A stretch of 64,000 nt of DNA, from contig NZ_JAAIXZ010000014.1 in the NCBI RefSeq assembly GCF_010894435.1, positions 62,001-126,000 of the forward strand, written 5' to 3'. Made by a program: the position numbers and the translations under genes. The notes under the pieces are model-generated. The model saw only the letters and a program-made list of their open reading frames with translations. It did not search any database and had not been told where the DNA came from. Below are positions 46,795-55,407 of the stretch, piece by piece. This DNA comes from Pyxidicoccus trucidator. Lineage in GTDB: Bacteria > Myxococcota > Myxococcia > Myxococcales > Myxococcaceae. The first letter of the stretch is position 1; each line of letters starts with the position of its first letter.

Positions 46795-47373
46795 ATGGCG
46801 AAGGACAGCAGCGCGGCGAAGGCCCGGCCCATGCGGGCGCGCATCCTGGAGCGGCTCGCGACGCCCACCACGGCGGCGGCGCTCTCGCGCGAGCTGGACA
46901 CGTCGCGGCAGAAGGTGGGCTACCACCTGCGCGAGCTGGAGCAGCAGGGCCTGGTCGAGCTGGTCGAGGAGCGCCGCAAGGGCAACGTGGTGGAGCGGCT
47001 GGTGAAGGCCAGCTCGCGCGCGTACCTCGTGTCCGCCGAGGCGCTGGCCTCGCTGGCCCCGGACCCCGCCGCCGCGGTGGACCGCTTCTCGTCGGCCTAC
47101 CTCATCGCCGTCGCGGCCCGGAGCGTGAGGGAGGTGGCCACCCTGCGAGAGCGCGCGCAGCAGGCGGGCAAGACGCTGCCGACCTTCTCCCTCCAGGCCG
47201 ACGTGCGCTTCGCCAACGCGAAGGCACGACATGCCTTCGCCGAGGAGCTGGCGGACACCGTCGGCCGCCTCGTCGCCCGCTACCACGATGAAAGAGTCGA
47301 GGGAGGGCGCCACTACCGCCTCTTCCTCGGCGTCCACCCCGCAGCCGCCCCCGAGAAGGAGAGCCCCGAGTGA
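46795..47373 (+). CDS. Winged-helix (ArsR-like) transcriptional regulator
   Basis: 192 aa. Short N-terminus then a winged helix: ARILERLATPTTAAALSREL, recognition helix DTSRQKVGYHLRELEQQGLV and wing EERRKGNVVERLVKA. The C-terminal 100 residues are helical and may bind a ligand. No metal-binding Cys pattern is present, so it is not a classical metal sensor. No Shine-Dalgarno is seen; the promoter layout predicts a leaderless mRNA. It overlaps the next gene by GTGA and leads the run that ends with the PAP2/isoprenoid synthase fusion. Confidence 0.85.
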   Translation: MAKDSSAAKARPMRARILERLATPTTAAALSRELDTSRQKVGYHLRELEQQGLVELVEERRKGNVVERLVKASSRAYLVSAEALASLAPDPAAAVDRFSSAYLIAVAARSVREVATLRERAQQAGKTLPTFSLQADVRFANAKARHAFAEELADTVGRLVARYHDERVEGGRHYRLFLGVHPAAAPEKESPE

Positions 47374-48146
47374 GCCAGGAGAAGACGCGCAGTCTCGAGA
47401 AGCAGGTGAAGATCAAGGCCCCTCGCGACGCCGTCTGGCGCGCGATTACCGAGGCCGACCAGATTGTCCGCTGGTTCGCGCTCGACGCGAAGGTGAAGCC
47501 GGGCGTCGGCGGCTTCGTGTGGCTGAGCTGGCCGGGCATGGCGGGCGAGGAGCGCATCGACGTCTGGGAGCAGGGGACGCACTTCCGGACGAGCAACCCC
47601 GCCCGGCCTCAAGTCGCCACCGACTGGTACGTGGAAGGCGAGGGCGGTGAGACGACGCTCCGGCTCGTGCACTCCGGCTTTGGCGAGGGCGCGGACTGGG
47701 ATGCCGAGTACGACTCGCTGGACCGCGGCTGGTCCGTGTTCTTCCAGAACCTCAAGCACATGCTGGAGCGGCATCCGGGCGCTCCCGGGCAGCAGGTGAT
47801 GGTGCCCGTGCCAGTGGGGAACGTCGGACTGGAACAGGCGTGGCAGTGCCTGCTGGGGCCGGGCGTGCTCGGCCTGGAGCGCACCGGCGAGCGGACCTTC
47901 AAGGCCCGCTCCGTCACGGGCGAGGCGCTGGAAGGGGAGGTGGACCTGTGGATGCCGCCTCGTGCGCTCGGCATCACCGTGAAGAACTGGAACGACGCGC
48001 GCTTCACCGTGGACATCAACGGGTGCGACGGCGAGGTGCGGGTCTGGGTCTGCCTGCTCACCTGGGGGCTGGATGCTCCCGCCGTCGAGGCGCTCCGCTC
48101 CCGGTGGCAGCCCGCGCTGGAAGGAATGTTCCGTCCCGCGGCGTGA
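47370..48146 (+). CDS. SRPBCC (AHSA1-like) protein
   Basis: 258 aa, GTG start overlapping the regulator stop (GTGA). The N-terminal half is an AHSA1/START-like SRPBCC fold (VKIKAPRDAVWRAITEADQI ... FQNLKHMLERHP) able to hold a hydrophobic ligand. The second half (about 145-258) looks like a second, degenerate copy ending in LRSRWQPALEGMF. An ArsR-type regulator coupled to an SRPBCC protein is a common pair; here it precedes lipid-modifying enzymes by 66 bp, which fits a role in ligand binding or transfer. Confidence 0.82.
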   Translation: MSQEKTRSLEKQVKIKAPRDAVWRAITEADQIVRWFALDAKVKPGVGGFVWLSWPGMAGEERIDVWEQGTHFRTSNPARPQVATDWYVEGEGGETTLRLVHSGFGEGADWDAEYDSLDRGWSVFFQNLKHMLERHPGAPGQQVMVPVPVGNVGLEQAWQCLLGPGVLGLERTGERTFKARSVTGEALEGEVDLWMPPRALGITVKNWNDARFTVDINGCDGEVRVWVCLLTWGLDAPAVEALRSRWQPALEGMFRPAA

Positions 48147-48212: not shown

Positions 48213-49184
48213 ATGGCGGTGAATGTCGTGGCGTGGGCGGATCCGGTCCGTCAACCCGAGCTGGGACGGCTCCGGGCGTGGCACCTCGTGTGCCCGTCCG
48301 AGTCGCTCCGGCGCGGGCAGGTGATGGGCTGGAGTCTCGGCGGGCGGGAGCTGGTCCTCTTCCGGGGACAGGGCGGCGGCGTGCATGCGCTGTCCGCCCA
48401 CTGCGCCCACATGGGCACCCACCTCGCGGGCGGCACCGTGGTGGGGGACTGCCTCCGCTGCCCGCTGCACCACTGGCGCTTCGACGGCAGCGGCGCCTGT
48501 CAGGCCGACGTGGGCGCCAGGTCCGGGCAGCGGCCGTTCCCCGTGGTGGAGCGCTTTGGCGCCATCCTCGTCTTCAACGGGCCGGTGGTCCTCTGTCCAC
48601 CGCCGGAGCTCGGCGCCGCGGACCTGATGTGGCGTGCCGGGCCCGCCGTCACCGTGCGCTGTGACTGGCTGCCCGTCCTGGCCAACTCCTTCGACATCGA
48701 GCACCTGCGCACCGTGCACCACCGCGAGCTGCGGGAGGCTCCGGTGGTGGAGCGGCCGGACCCGTTCACCCTGCGCCTGCGCTACACCTCGCGCGTCACC
48801 GGCTCCGGGCCGAGTGACTGGCTGATGAAGACGCTGTCCGGCAACCGCATCGGCGTCACCATTACGCTGCACGGCGGGACGCTCCTCTCCGTGGAGAGCG
48901 ACCTGGGACGGACGCGGAGCGCCCTGGTCGCCGGCTTCCGTAAGACGCCCGAGGGCCTGTCCGTGCGGCTGGCCTTCGCCGCGCGCCGGGGACGGGTTCC
49001 GGGGATGGACAGGCTGTCGCTCGCGGTGTCCCGGTGGCTCTTCACGTCCTTCCTGCGGCGGGACTTGTCCGTGCTCCATGACATGCGCTTCAACGCGGTC
49101 GGCGCCGCGGAGGACCCCGTCCTGAAGCAGTTGTTGGACTTCACCGCCAGCCTGCCCGAGGACCGCGATGACGAGCGAGGGTAG
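48213..49184 (+). CDS. Rieske non-haem iron oxygenase
   Basis: 323 aa. Rieske [2Fe-2S] ligands Cys64/His66 in CAHMGTH and Cys83/His86 in CPLHHW. The mononuclear iron site is visible as NSFDIEHLRTVHHREL (His164, His169). The size and single-chain plan match oxygenases acting on sterols and polycyclic lipids (KshA, cholesterol 7-desaturase/DAF-36, SdmA type) more than classical ring dioxygenases; this is inference. No reductase is adjacent. Its 3' end overlaps the desaturase by 17 bases, so the two are probably translated together. Confidence 0.88.
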   Translation: MAVNVVAWADPVRQPELGRLRAWHLVCPSESLRRGQVMGWSLGGRELVLFRGQGGGVHALSAHCAHMGTHLAGGTVVGDCLRCPLHHWRFDGSGACQADVGARSGQRPFPVVERFGAILVFNGPVVLCPPPELGAADLMWRAGPAVTVRCDWLPVLANSFDIEHLRTVHHRELREAPVVERPDPFTLRLRYTSRVTGSGPSDWLMKTLSGNRIGVTITLHGGTLLSVESDLGRTRSALVAGFRKTPEGLSVRLAFAARRGRVPGMDRLSLAVSRWLFTSFLRRDLSVLHDMRFNAVGAAEDPVLKQLLDFTASLPEDRDDERG

Positions 49185-50088
49185 GGACACGTCCATCCCC
49201 GCCACCCTCAACGTCGTGCTCCTGGCCTCCGCGCTCACCGTGGGCGCCGGGTGCCTGTGGCTGGCCTCGCACGCGGACACGTGGGCCGTGCGGCTGCTGG
49301 CGGCCGTGGGGTTCTCCTTCGTGAACAACACCGTGTTCTCGCTGCTCCACGAGGCGACGCACGGGGTGCTCCACCCATCGCGCCGGGTGAATGACGGGCT
49401 CGGGCGCGTGGCGGCGGCGCTGTTTCCGACGTCCTTCACCATGCAGCGGGCCTTCCACCTCAACCACCACCGCCACAACCGGACGCGGCTGGAGCAGTTC
49501 GACTACTTCCGGCCCGGGGACAACCGCTTCCTGAAGCGCGCGCAGTGGTACTCCATCCTCAGCGGCCTCTACTGGCTCTTCGTGCCGGTGGGCGCGGTGG
49601 CCTTCGCGCTCGTTCCGGGGTTGCTGCATCGGCTGCGCGGCACCGGCACCCGCTATGGCGAGCAGACCGGCGCGGACGCGTACCTGGGCCGTCTGGAGGA
49701 TGCGCCTGGCGCCGCCATCCGCTGGGAGGTGCTGCTGGCGGTGGCAGTGCAGGCCGGGCTCATGGTGGCGCTGGACCTGTCCGTGACGGGGTGGGCGCTG
49801 TGCTACGCGGCCTTCGCGGTCAACTGGAGCGGGCTCCAGTACGCGGACCATGCGTGGTCTCCGCTGCACGTCCGAGATGGGGCGTGGGACTTGCGGGTGG
49901 CCGCGCCCGTGCGGTGGCTGTTCCTCAACTACCACTACCACCGCGCGCACCACCGGCATCCCCATGTGCCGTGGCTGCACCTGGAGCGCTACGTGGATTC
50001 GAGTGTGCCCCGTCCGTCGTACCTTCGCGTCTGGCTGTCCATGTGGCGCGGGCCCCGGCCGCTGCCCGTCACGGTGGAGGAGCCATGA
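49168..50088 (+). CDS. Membrane di-iron desaturase/hydroxylase
   Basis: 306 aa. Histidine boxes HEATH (61-65), HLNHHRH (97-103) and HYHRAHH (256-262), plus a His in YADHAW near 228. At least four membrane helices. The pattern fits fatty acid desaturases and the related carotenoid ketolase/hydroxylase group. Starts inside the Rieske gene and ends in ATGA shared with the micro-ORF at 50085. Together with the isoprenoid-synthase-like fusion downstream, a terpenoid or polyprenyl substrate is as likely as a fatty acid. Confidence 0.87.
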   Translation: MTSEGRDTSIPATLNVVLLASALTVGAGCLWLASHADTWAVRLLAAVGFSFVNNTVFSLLHEATHGVLHPSRRVNDGLGRVAAALFPTSFTMQRAFHLNHHRHNRTRLEQFDYFRPGDNRFLKRAQWYSILSGLYWLFVPVGAVAFALVPGLLHRLRGTGTRYGEQTGADAYLGRLEDAPGAAIRWEVLLAVAVQAGLMVALDLSVTGWALCYAAFAVNWSGLQYADHAWSPLHVRDGAWDLRVAAPVRWLFLNYHYHRAHHRHPHVPWLHLERYVDSSVPRPSYLRVWLSMWRGPRPLPVTVEEP

Positions 50089-50156
50089 GCCAGCGCTCAG
50101 TGCTGTTCGGTCTGCCCCAGCGCAGGCCGCTTCCCGCTTCGGTGGAAACACGATGA
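50085..50156 (+). CDS. 23-residue micro-ORF resembling the N-terminus of the next gene
   Basis: ATG at 50085 overlaps the desaturase stop (ATGA), and its TGA overlaps the next gene's ATG at 50153 (ATGA). The peptide begins MSQRSVLFGLPQRR; the next protein begins MSPRPALFGLPRRE, identical at 9 of the first 14 positions, and the DNA is similar too. It may be a coupling peptide, or the remnant of a duplicated 5' end left after deletion. Both flanking overlaps are intact, which argues that its translation matters. Confidence 0.55.
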   Translation: MSQRSVLFGLPQRRPLPASVETR

Positions 50157-51670
50157 GCCCGCGCCCCGCCTTGTTCGGCCTGCCCCGCCGGGAGGAGCTG
50201 GTCCTCACCGGCTCGCTCACCGTGGGCTTCGCGCTGTTCTTCCTCGCCGTGTACGGCGGCGCGAGCTGGGTGACGGGCTTCTATTCCGGCGGCCTCCGCG
50301 TGGAGCTGCCGTTCGAGCGGCACATCCCGTTCGTCCCCGCGTGGGCGGCGGTCTACGTGAGCATGGACGTGCTGCTGCTGCTGTCGCTGCTCGTCTTCCG
50401 CACGTGGCGGGACATGGTGCCCTTCGCGCTCGCGCTGTGCGTGGAGACGGTGGTGGGCGCGGTGGGCTTCCTGGTGCTGCCCGTGGAGGTCGCCTGGCCC
50501 GCTCGCGTCGTGCACGGCGGCTGGGCCGAGGTCTTCTTCCTGGCCGACACGATGAACCTGGAGCGCAACTACCTGCCGTCGCTCCACGTGGCCTTCGCGT
50601 GCACCGCCGCGCTGGCATATGCGGAGCGCTCGGGCTGGCTGGCGCGGACGGTGTTCGGGCTGTGGGCGGCGGGCATCGCCGCGTCCACGCTGCTCATCCA
50701 CGAGCACCACCTGGTGGACGTGGTGGCGGGCGCGCTATTGGCCTGGTGGACGTGGCGGCTCGTCGCGCCCCGGGCCCGCCGTGAGGACTTCTTGAATGCG
50801 CTCCACGTGGAGGCGCTCTGTGCCCGGGAGCTGTTCCGCTTCTCCCGGCGGCACCTGCGCTACGCGCTGATTGCCCTGGCGCTCTATCGCTACTCGCTGG
50901 GCCGGTGGTGGCGCGCCGCGCGGGTGGCCCGGGTGGGGTTCTGCTTCCTCCAGCTCGTGGACGACGTGCTGGACGGAGACCGGCGCATCGAGGGCGAGCC
51001 GCTCGACTGGGTGGACGCGCTCCTGGTGGAGCTGGAGACGGGGCGCGCGCAGGACACCGGGACGGCGGCCACGCTGGGACGGGTGCTGCTGGCCAGTCTG
51101 GAAGACCGGGAGGCGCGGGGGCACGTCTTCCAGCTCATGCGCACCATGCGCGCGGACCGGGAGCGGGTGCTCGGGCGGCGGTGGCTCGGCGCCGAGGCGC
51201 TCCGTGCGCAGCACCGGGACACGTTCCGGCTCTCCGTGGACCTGATGCTGCACGTGGCCGGGGCGGGAGTGCGTGCCTCGGATGCTCCGGCGCTCATCGA
51301 CGCGTTCGGCTGGTGCTCCAGCCTGCGAGACCTGCGCGAGGACCTGGCGCAGGGGCTCTACAACGTGCCGGCCGAGGTGGCGGAGGAGGTGAGGACCGAG
51401 GGGGCGGACCCTTCGGACTGCGACGCGCTGCTCGCGTCGGCCGCCGGGCGCGCGTGGGTGGTGGGGGAGTACGCCCGTGCTCGCACGCTGTTGGATTGCT
51501 GCTCGGTGGAGCTGGCCGCCCTCGAAGGGCGCGCCGGGGTGCCACTGCTGCGGCTGTTTCACCGCTCCATCGAGAGCTTCTGGGCGAAGCGGCTCCCCCG
51601 CCGCATGCCCTTCCTTCGCGACGCGGCCCGGCTCAGGCCGTGGCCTTCCGGCGCCGCGTCCGGCCGATGA
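50153..51670 (+). CDS. Fusion of PAP2/AUR1-like lipid phosphatase and squalene/phytoene-synthase-like domain
   Basis: 505 aa. Residues about 15-205 form a multi-helix PAP2_3 domain with LPSLHVAFA (His145) and HEHHLVDVVAGALLA (His186, Asp189), the catalytic pattern of AUR1-type phosphotransferases and lipid phosphate phosphatases. Residues about 215-485 resemble head-to-head isoprenoid synthases: first Asp motif LVDDVLDGD (270-275) and second SLRDLREDLAQGLYNVP (390-406), like the RDxxED motif of squalene/phytoene synthases. Inferred job: join or bind prenyl diphosphates and remove phosphate in one chain at the membrane. Its 3' end overlaps the convergent SnoaL-like gene by 38 bases. Confidence 0.8.
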   Translation: MSPRPALFGLPRREELVLTGSLTVGFALFFLAVYGGASWVTGFYSGGLRVELPFERHIPFVPAWAAVYVSMDVLLLLSLLVFRTWRDMVPFALALCVETVVGAVGFLVLPVEVAWPARVVHGGWAEVFFLADTMNLERNYLPSLHVAFACTAALAYAERSGWLARTVFGLWAAGIAASTLLIHEHHLVDVVAGALLAWWTWRLVAPRARREDFLNALHVEALCARELFRFSRRHLRYALIALALYRYSLGRWWRAARVARVGFCFLQLVDDVLDGDRRIEGEPLDWVDALLVELETGRAQDTGTAATLGRVLLASLEDREARGHVFQLMRTMRADRERVLGRRWLGAEALRAQHRDTFRLSVDLMLHVAGAGVRASDAPALIDAFGWCSSLRDLREDLAQGLYNVPAEVAEEVRTEGADPSDCDALLASAAGRAWVVGEYARARTLLDCCSVELAALEGRAGVPLLRLFHRSIESFWAKRLPRRMPFLRDAARLRPWPSGAASGR

Positions 51671-52256
51671 CGAAGCCGGCGAGGAGCGCGCCAATCGCAA
51701 CGATGGAGAGCAGCCCCGCCCCGTAGTTCTTCATCTTCGAGAGCAGCGGGTTGTCGAACACGTTGGTGGAGTAGTGGAAGGCGGCGATGAGCCAGCGGTC
51801 GCCCTCGCGCACCATGGTGCACGTCCACCGGCTGTCGATGACGATGTCCGTGCCGTCCGTGAGCACGTAGTGGTCCTTGGACGAGCCCCGGGCGATGCCG
51901 GTGTTGCCGTAGAGGCGGGTGAGGTCATCCACCTCGAACTTCGCGGTGACCTTCTCCACCACGCGGTTCGGCCCGCGCATCATCTCGTCGTAGTAGGCGC
52001 GGATGGCCTCCTTGCCCACGCGCACGTCGTTGTTCATGGTGGTGAAGACGACGTCCGGGTGCAGGTGCGTCAGCATCCGGTCCACGTCCTGCTTGTTGAG
52101 CGCGTCCTCCATGTCCTGCTTGAGGGCTCGCAGTGCGATGTGCGTGGCCTCCACGTCCGGAGGCGCGCCACCGGGCGCGGCGGCCTCCTGGGCCAGGACG
52201 GGCGCCGAGAGGAACGAGAGCAGCAACGCCACCACACAGCCGAGGGTCCGCGTCAT
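51633..52256 (-). CDS. Exported SnoaL-like (DUF4440) protein with C-terminal membrane anchor
   Basis: 207 aa from ATG 52256; upstream frame to 52508 is not homologous. Signal peptide (MTRTLGCVVALLLSFLSAPV, cleavage after LAQ), an NTF2-like domain (IALRALKQDMEDALNKQDVD ... HPDVVFTTMNNDVRVGKEAI ... WTCTMVREGDRWLIAAFHYS) and a final hydrophobic helix (LLSIVAIGALLAGFVIG) before RTRRRK. So the domain faces the periplasm with an inner-membrane anchor. NTF2-like proteins bind or isomerise small molecules; the ligand is unknown. The anchor is unusual for DUF4440. Confidence 0.8.
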   Translation of the reverse strand: MTRTLGCVVALLLSFLSAPVLAQEAAAPGGAPPDVEATHIALRALKQDMEDALNKQDVDRMLTHLHPDVVFTTMNNDVRVGKEAIRAYYDEMMRGPNRVVEKVTAKFEVDDLTRLYGNTGIARGSSKDHYVLTDGTDIVIDSRWTCTMVREGDRWLIAAFHYSTNVFDNPLLSKMKNYGAGLLSIVAIGALLAGFVIGRTRRRKATA

Positions 52257-52437
52257 GAAGGCTCCGGAAGAAGGCAGGGCTGCCCGGCAGGCAGGTCCGC
52301 ACGCGTTATGGCACACCTGCGTCAGCGTGCTCACCTGAAGGAGTCGGGTTCGCGCAGTCACGCCGGGAGCCCGGCGCGTATGCTGCGCCCACGGACGGTC
52401 GCCAGGCCTCGCCGGACACCGCACCCCGGAGCGCCCC

Positions 52438-55407
<2,970 letters not shown>

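Follow-up and report, generated by a model that had tools for sequence, protein, structure and literature searches.

What could a bacterium gain from a single protein that carries both a membrane phosphatase and an isoprenoid synthase? Such a protein appears to be encoded in the 64,000 nucleotides that we analysed (hereafter the window) from the 12.7 Mb genome of Pyxidicoccus trucidator. Its gene runs on the forward strand from 50153 to 51670, with an ATG start and a TGA stop, and specifies 505 residues, in which a PAP2_3-type predicted membrane phosphatase is followed by a putative class I isoprenoid synthase resembling the squalene/phytoene synthase (SQS/PSY) group. The motifs read in the initial annotation, PSLHVA (residues 142-147), HHLVD (185-189), DDVLD (270-274) and RDLREDL (392-398), are all found at these positions. 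In an alignment of 32 distinct homologues of 70-85% identity, P142, S143, H145, H185, D189, D270, D271 and D274 are invariant, as are R392, D393, E396 and D397 in the synthase half. In pairwise comparisons with the two nearest relatives, the PAP2 half has a dN/dS of 0.25-0.28 and the synthase half one of 0.34-0.35. Conservation and these ratios together rule out a chance ORF or a frame error. The gene is real and well conserved, and its architecture is unusual.

The 5' end of the gene has a remnant copy at 50085..50156 on the same strand. This partial tandem copy is an ORF of 23 codons that encodes MSQRSVLFGLPQRRPLPASVETR; it begins at the start position of the relatives' genes, and its stop spans the ATG in use. 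Extra sequence is also present at the junction between the fusion gene and the preceding desaturase gene in two relatives (G128 and G123). The fusion protein of G123 (L058 7205-8782) moreover has an insertion of approximately 20 residues separating its two Asp-rich motifs.

The N-terminal half is a PAP2_3-type predicted membrane phosphatase, as judged from profiles, motifs and a structural model. The PAP2 domain, with six predicted membrane helices, spans residues 12-211 (50186..50785, forward strand) according to Pfam and the model of this half. The window protein scores 34.0 bits with PAP2_3 (PF14378), passing the Pfam gathering cut-off of 27, and 29.7 bits with Pfam PAP2 (cut-off 27.2); seven homologues score 33-42 bits with PAP2_3. 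When used as a query against plasmids, the fusion finds matches to its PAP2 domain only. The model, built for residues 1-211 alone with 24 relatives (pLDDT 84), fits sphingomyelin synthase-related protein (SMSr) best (Z 15.6, rmsd 4.2 over 187 residues), followed by inositol phosphorylceramide (IPC) synthase (Z 14.2), LpxE (Z 13.8, rmsd 3.2 over 150 residues) and PgpB (Z 12.8, rmsd 3.4 over 160 residues). Motif C2, PSLH (residues 142-145; 50576..50587, forward strand), is invariant in the 32 homologues, and motif C3, HEHHLVD (residues 183-189; 50699..50719, forward strand), keeps H185 and D189. In the same set, R118 of motif C1, all four residues of C2 (P142-S143-L144-H145), S178, and H185 and D189 of C3 are invariant, and P142, S143, H145, S178, H185 and D189 remain so across a wider set of 25 aligned PAP2 proteins. 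The fusion thus shares the PAP2 fold, the PSxH and HxxxD residues and the invariant C1 Arg with PAP2_3, Aur1, SMSr and PgpB enzymes; it differs from them by the His-Glu that replaces the usual Lys-Gln ahead of the catalytic His throughout the fusion family, and by its C-terminal synthase domain. As for substrates, structure entry 8bm3 is described as a PgpB crystal with farnesyl pyrophosphate, and going by that entry PAP2 enzymes bind prenyl diphosphates.

The C-terminal half has no Pfam match in the window protein, SQS_PSY (PF00494) staying below its gathering cut-off of 26 bits. Six of 15 homologues match this profile at E values up to 10, the best at 5.8e-5, and one homologue inspected in detail scores 20.2 bits, again below the cut-off of 26. 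The NCBIfam equivalogs for HpnC, HpnD, CrtB and squalene synthase give no match to the window protein up to E 1, while the phylum's proteins of HpnC, HpnD and squalene-synthase type match these models strongly. Searches of solved structures by sequence, with the whole protein or with a C-terminal profile, return chance matches only. Using hhalign, the synthase profile matches the phylum's phytoene-synthase-type proteins with an E value of 3.8e-6 and a probability of 87%; the genome itself has one other SQS_PSY protein, which is of this type.

The motifs of this half fit the same group. The first Asp-rich motif, DDVLD (residues 270-274; 50960..50974, forward strand), is invariant, and the second, RDLRED (residues 392-397; 51326..51343, forward strand), has invariant residues and leads into GLYNVP, where G401, N404 and P406 are invariant in the 32 homologues. 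Both motifs align with the two Asp motifs of CrtB/HpnD-type proteins, RDLRED falling on RDVREDLERGRVYLP in the phytoene-synthase-type protein of the same genome. Both metal- and diphosphate-binding motifs are intact, and a prenyl diphosphate is a likely substrate, as had been supposed. The initial annotation had also cautioned that the first motif resembles that of chain-elongating prenyl synthases. This caveat is largely settled, as the second motif, RDLREDLAQGLYNVP, is of the SQS/PSY type and SQS/PSY structures top the fold list; a chain-elongating trans-prenyl synthase is ruled out by RDLREDL standing in place of DDxxD.

Structure prediction places the synthase domain, residues 212-490 (50786..51622, forward strand), within the class I isoprenoid synthases. 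The full-length model has a pLDDT of 80.6 overall, and above 80 throughout residues 191-490. Foldseek with the full-length model gives nothing below E 0.001, and the fold matches of residues 212-490 were obtained with VIA-align after Foldseek. HpnC (4hd1) comes first (Z 17.6, rmsd 4.0 over 251 residues, 21% identity), followed by LvqB4 (Z 17.5), CqsB4 (Z 17.3), and then CrtM-type and human squalene synthases. All of the top 24 rows are structures of the SQS/PSY group or carbazole transferases; outside these, the class I enzymes begin with abietadiene synthase (Z 15.3). Helical bundles easily reach middling Z values; those of the synthase half exceed the alignment tool's warning level of about 13. 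The ranking of the fold matches is in agreement with the sequence profiles and with the type to which the second motif belongs. We assign the C-terminal half to the class I isoprenoid synthases by fold, with the SQS/PSY group as its nearest kin, a remote relation that is predicted from model and sequence. The combination first proposed for this chain, a PAP2/Aur1-like half and an SQS/PSY-like half, is thus supported by profile, motifs and predicted fold alike.

Resemblance to the SQS/PSY group need not extend to its chemistry. Like HpnC, HpnD, CrtM, CrtB and squalene synthase, the domain has an all-helical class I fold of approximately 250 residues (Z 15.4-17.6), a DDxxD-type first motif and a second motif of the form RDxxED...G...P. 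In contrast to them, it lacks the YxxxVAG and QxxN signatures and a Pfam match, sits on a long branch and is fused to PAP2. We compared the signatures with the phylum's own sequences of HpnC, HpnD, CrtB and squalene-synthase type, five of which were verified with NCBIfam. The positions aligned with YxxxVAG read H-R-D-T-F-R-L: the Tyr falls on a position that varies, being H354 in the window protein and Q or L in others, and VAG on F-R-L. The QxxN ahead of the second motif aligns with G-W-C-S, and here it is W387, C388 and S389 that do not vary. A maximum-likelihood tree unites the family in one clade (support 100/100) that lies outside the HpnC, HpnD, CrtB and SQS groups; its stem is 3.5 changes per column long. 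The separate clade, its long stem and the changed signatures indicate a distinct, divergent subfamily that is not classifiable as phytoene or squalene synthase, although it may use the same kind of substrate.

The initial annotation had favoured a true head-to-head synthase, which would make presqualene or prephytoene diphosphate for the PAP2 domain to release as a cyclopropyl alcohol. HpnC, the closest solved fold, is indeed a squalene synthase, and the phytoene-synthase-type profile match (hhalign E 3.8e-6) and the two preserved Asp motifs point in the same direction. However, conservation is lacking at the Tyr and VAG positions and at the Gln/Asn pair, the clade stands apart from all four groups at the end of its long stem, and release of the product would be at odds with active sites predicted on opposite membrane faces (see below). 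We therefore regard this chemistry as unlikely. Altered pocket motifs would suit a changed second substrate, which brings to mind prenyl transfer to a non-prenyl acceptor, in which case the phosphorylated lipid handled by the PAP2 domain would be a leftover or a separate one. NzsG and CqsB4 keep their Asp motifs and yet put a dimethylallyl group onto carbazole (PMC7466098). As divergent SQS/PSY relatives with both Asp motifs, NzsG, CqsB4 and LvqB4 resemble the fusion, and LvqB4 and CqsB4 are practically tied with HpnC in fold. They differ from it in that they share 16% identity with it, belong to carbazole gene clusters and are not described as PAP2 fusions. With this low identity to the carbazole enzymes, and no acceptor-scaffold gene noticed in the conserved neighbourhood, a transferase of this kind is equally doubtful.

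The predicted topology bears on how the two halves might cooperate. The N-tail, the loop between TM2 and TM3 and the stretch after TM6 are net positive, and both loops bearing PAP2 active-site residues have a net negative charge. By the positive-inside rule, the PAP2 site would face the periplasm and the C-terminal domain would be cytosolic, which places the two active sites on opposite faces of the membrane; PgpB is oriented likewise (PMC7413402). A continuous reaction would then need a flipped intermediate. The predicted topology thus argues against simple direct channelling of a prenyl diphosphate into the phosphatase, as had been envisaged in the initial annotation.

The operon, which had escaped the initial annotation, is the best functional clue for the fusion. 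Its first gene (48213..49184, forward strand) codes for a Rieske non-haem iron oxygenase of 323 residues (PF00355, 70.6 bits), whose best solved relative is the oxygenase of 3-ketosteroid 9alpha-hydroxylase (E 1.9e-14, over the Rieske domain). The second gene (49168..50088, forward strand) codes for a membrane di-iron enzyme of the FA_desaturase family of 306 residues (PF00487, 94.8 bits), in whose sequence the His boxes HEATH, HLNHH and HRAHH can be read; among NCBIfam models it gives weak matches to carotenoid ketolase and hydroxylase. The Rieske and desaturase genes overlap by 17 bases, and in a near relative (L001) the fusion gene starts with ATGA directly behind the desaturase gene. This overlap and this junction make co-transcription and translational coupling of the three genes probable. 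The order Rieske, desaturase, fusion is fixed in every fusion-bearing locus, 45 loci having been examined at first, some of them duplicates of the same place. Just upstream (46795-48146) are genes whose sequences read as an ArsR-like regulator and an SRPBCC-like protein; they are present in the closest relatives (L001, L058 and L059) and absent from the other loci examined. At the other end, a SnoaL/DUF4440-type gene on the opposite strand (51633-52508, reverse strand) overlaps the 3' end of the fusion gene, and this type of gene is a frequent neighbour of the fusion in relatives.

Using the C-terminal profile, we found the synthase domain in 36 of the 195 genomes of the phylum, distributed over four genera, and fused to PAP2 in 35. 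The close form of the Rieske protein is present in the same 36 genomes and that of the desaturase in 35 of these. Except for one deletion form (G092), the profile detects no stand-alone or otherwise fused relative of the domain in the 195 genomes. A contig scan, whose reach is limited to close relatives, returned myxobacterial loci, from relatives named Pyxidicoccus, Myxococcus, Archangium and Corallococcus, and one record titled Comamonas sp. KCTC 72670 (L003). The latter carries the myxobacterial operon at 75% identity and its score equals that of G126, a genome of the window's own genus; its title looks wrong.

The exception shows which parts of the operon can be lost. In G092, a synthase-only ORF of 302 residues (L057 10634-11539) lies directly behind the Rieske gene. 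Its start corresponds in position to that of the desaturase gene in relatives; both this gene and the PAP2 half are gone, and the SnoaL-type neighbour gene is in its usual position. In the tree, this synthase groups with a fused relative from the same genus (support 99/97), and the stand-alone form thus arose by deletion. Its motifs are intact, and dN/dS against the window is 0.43, with 0.45 for the fused G094 form. As the Rieske enzyme and the synthase both survive in G092 without PAP2 and desaturase, their genes seem to be the core of the operon, which suggests that PAP2 and desaturase are dispensable. Alternatively, the gene for the stand-alone synthase may itself be starting to decay.

Many genomes of the family have a second PAP2-desaturase pair, whose desaturase is 34-46% identical to that of the window. 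In G151 and G154, the paralogous PAP2 and desaturase are fused in one protein (516 and 533 residues; L150 6595-8831 and L151 5770-8117), followed by an HlyIII-family gene. A stand-alone synthase of the fusion's family was sought at the paralogous loci and not found. Pairs without a synthase imply that PAP2 and this type of desaturase constitute a module of their own, to which, from the gene content, the window operon adds a synthase and a Rieske enzyme; the PAP2 and desaturase genes may serve a more general lipid metabolism. One could even imagine a sphingolipid-type module, in which ceramide-like lipids are the substrates of an Aur1/SMSr-like PAP2 and of the desaturase, with the synthase domain as an accessory of minor or regulatory importance. 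The best fits of the PAP2 half, to SMSr and IPC synthases, and the HlyIII-family genes beside the paralogous pair in two genomes are in line with this idea, which we nevertheless consider highly improbable, as no aligned homologue departs from the metal-motif residues of the synthase and the synthase outlives the loss of PAP2 and desaturase in G092. In another genome, G139, the PAP2-desaturase pair adjoins, at a contig end, the C-terminal part of a Terpene_syn_C_2 protein (L149 2-640); used as a query, this fragment has no copy at the other paralogous loci. Together with the next place of class I cyclases in the fold list, represented by abietadiene synthase, this neighbour might suggest that the synthase half is a class I terpene cyclase, or a simple enzyme that ionises GGPP or a prenyl diphosphate of another chain length, with PAP2 and the oxygenases as tailoring enzymes. 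This is improbable too: the second motif is of the SQS/PSY type rather than NSE/DTE, HpnC, CrtM and CqsB4 outrank all cyclases in fold, and the terpene-synthase neighbour occurs in one genome only.

Our preferred reading, to which sequence and models lend about even chances, is that a synthase or transferase step that uses a prenyl diphosphate, a dephosphorylation and two oxidations yield an oxygenated isoprenoid lipid or specialised metabolite. The cytosolic C-terminal domain would use Mg2+ coordinated by DDVLD and RDLRED to bind an allylic prenyl diphosphate and would then ionise it, and the resulting cation would undergo condensation, transfer or cyclisation, not necessarily of the classic head-to-head kind. 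At the outer face of the inner membrane, the PAP2 domain would hydrolyse the phosphate or diphosphate of a related lipid to the alcohol, and the desaturase-family enzyme and the Rieske oxygenase would oxidise the lipid. The oxygenated product would be made in Myxococcus, Corallococcus, Archangium and near relatives. We infer the substrate class, the order of the steps and the topology of this pathway.

Parts of this scheme have parallels elsewhere. The gromomycin cluster of Streptomyces brings together, in a single isoprenoid pathway, a PAP2 protein, Rieske oxygenases and a prenyltransferase resembling terpene synthases (PMC12105684), but these are separate proteins, accompanied by an additional cyclase and a P450, in another phylum. 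The HAD-like terpene cyclases AacA and AstC join a domain that forms terpenes to a phosphatase within a single chain and couple cyclisation with dephosphorylation (PMC13244436). They combine a class II (drimane) cyclase with a HAD-like phosphatase, unlike the fusion, to which they have no family relation. Synthase-phosphatase fusions are known in the form of class II drimane cyclases with HAD domains. In the literature searched, which covered few subscription journals, we found no description of an SQS/PSY-fold domain fused to a membrane PAP2 phosphatase, or of this operon in Myxococcus.

As the synthase half of the window protein matches neither Pfam nor NCBIfam models, the operon may escape searches based on such profiles. 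It is tempting to speculate that an SQS/PSY-fold subfamily with non-head-to-head chemistry and PAP2, desaturase and Rieske partners makes an undescribed class of myxobacterial isoprenoid lipids, a possibility that we put forward tentatively. The operon looks like an uncharacterised pathway to an isoprenoid compound, and it occurs in many culturable strains of Myxococcus, Corallococcus and Archangium.
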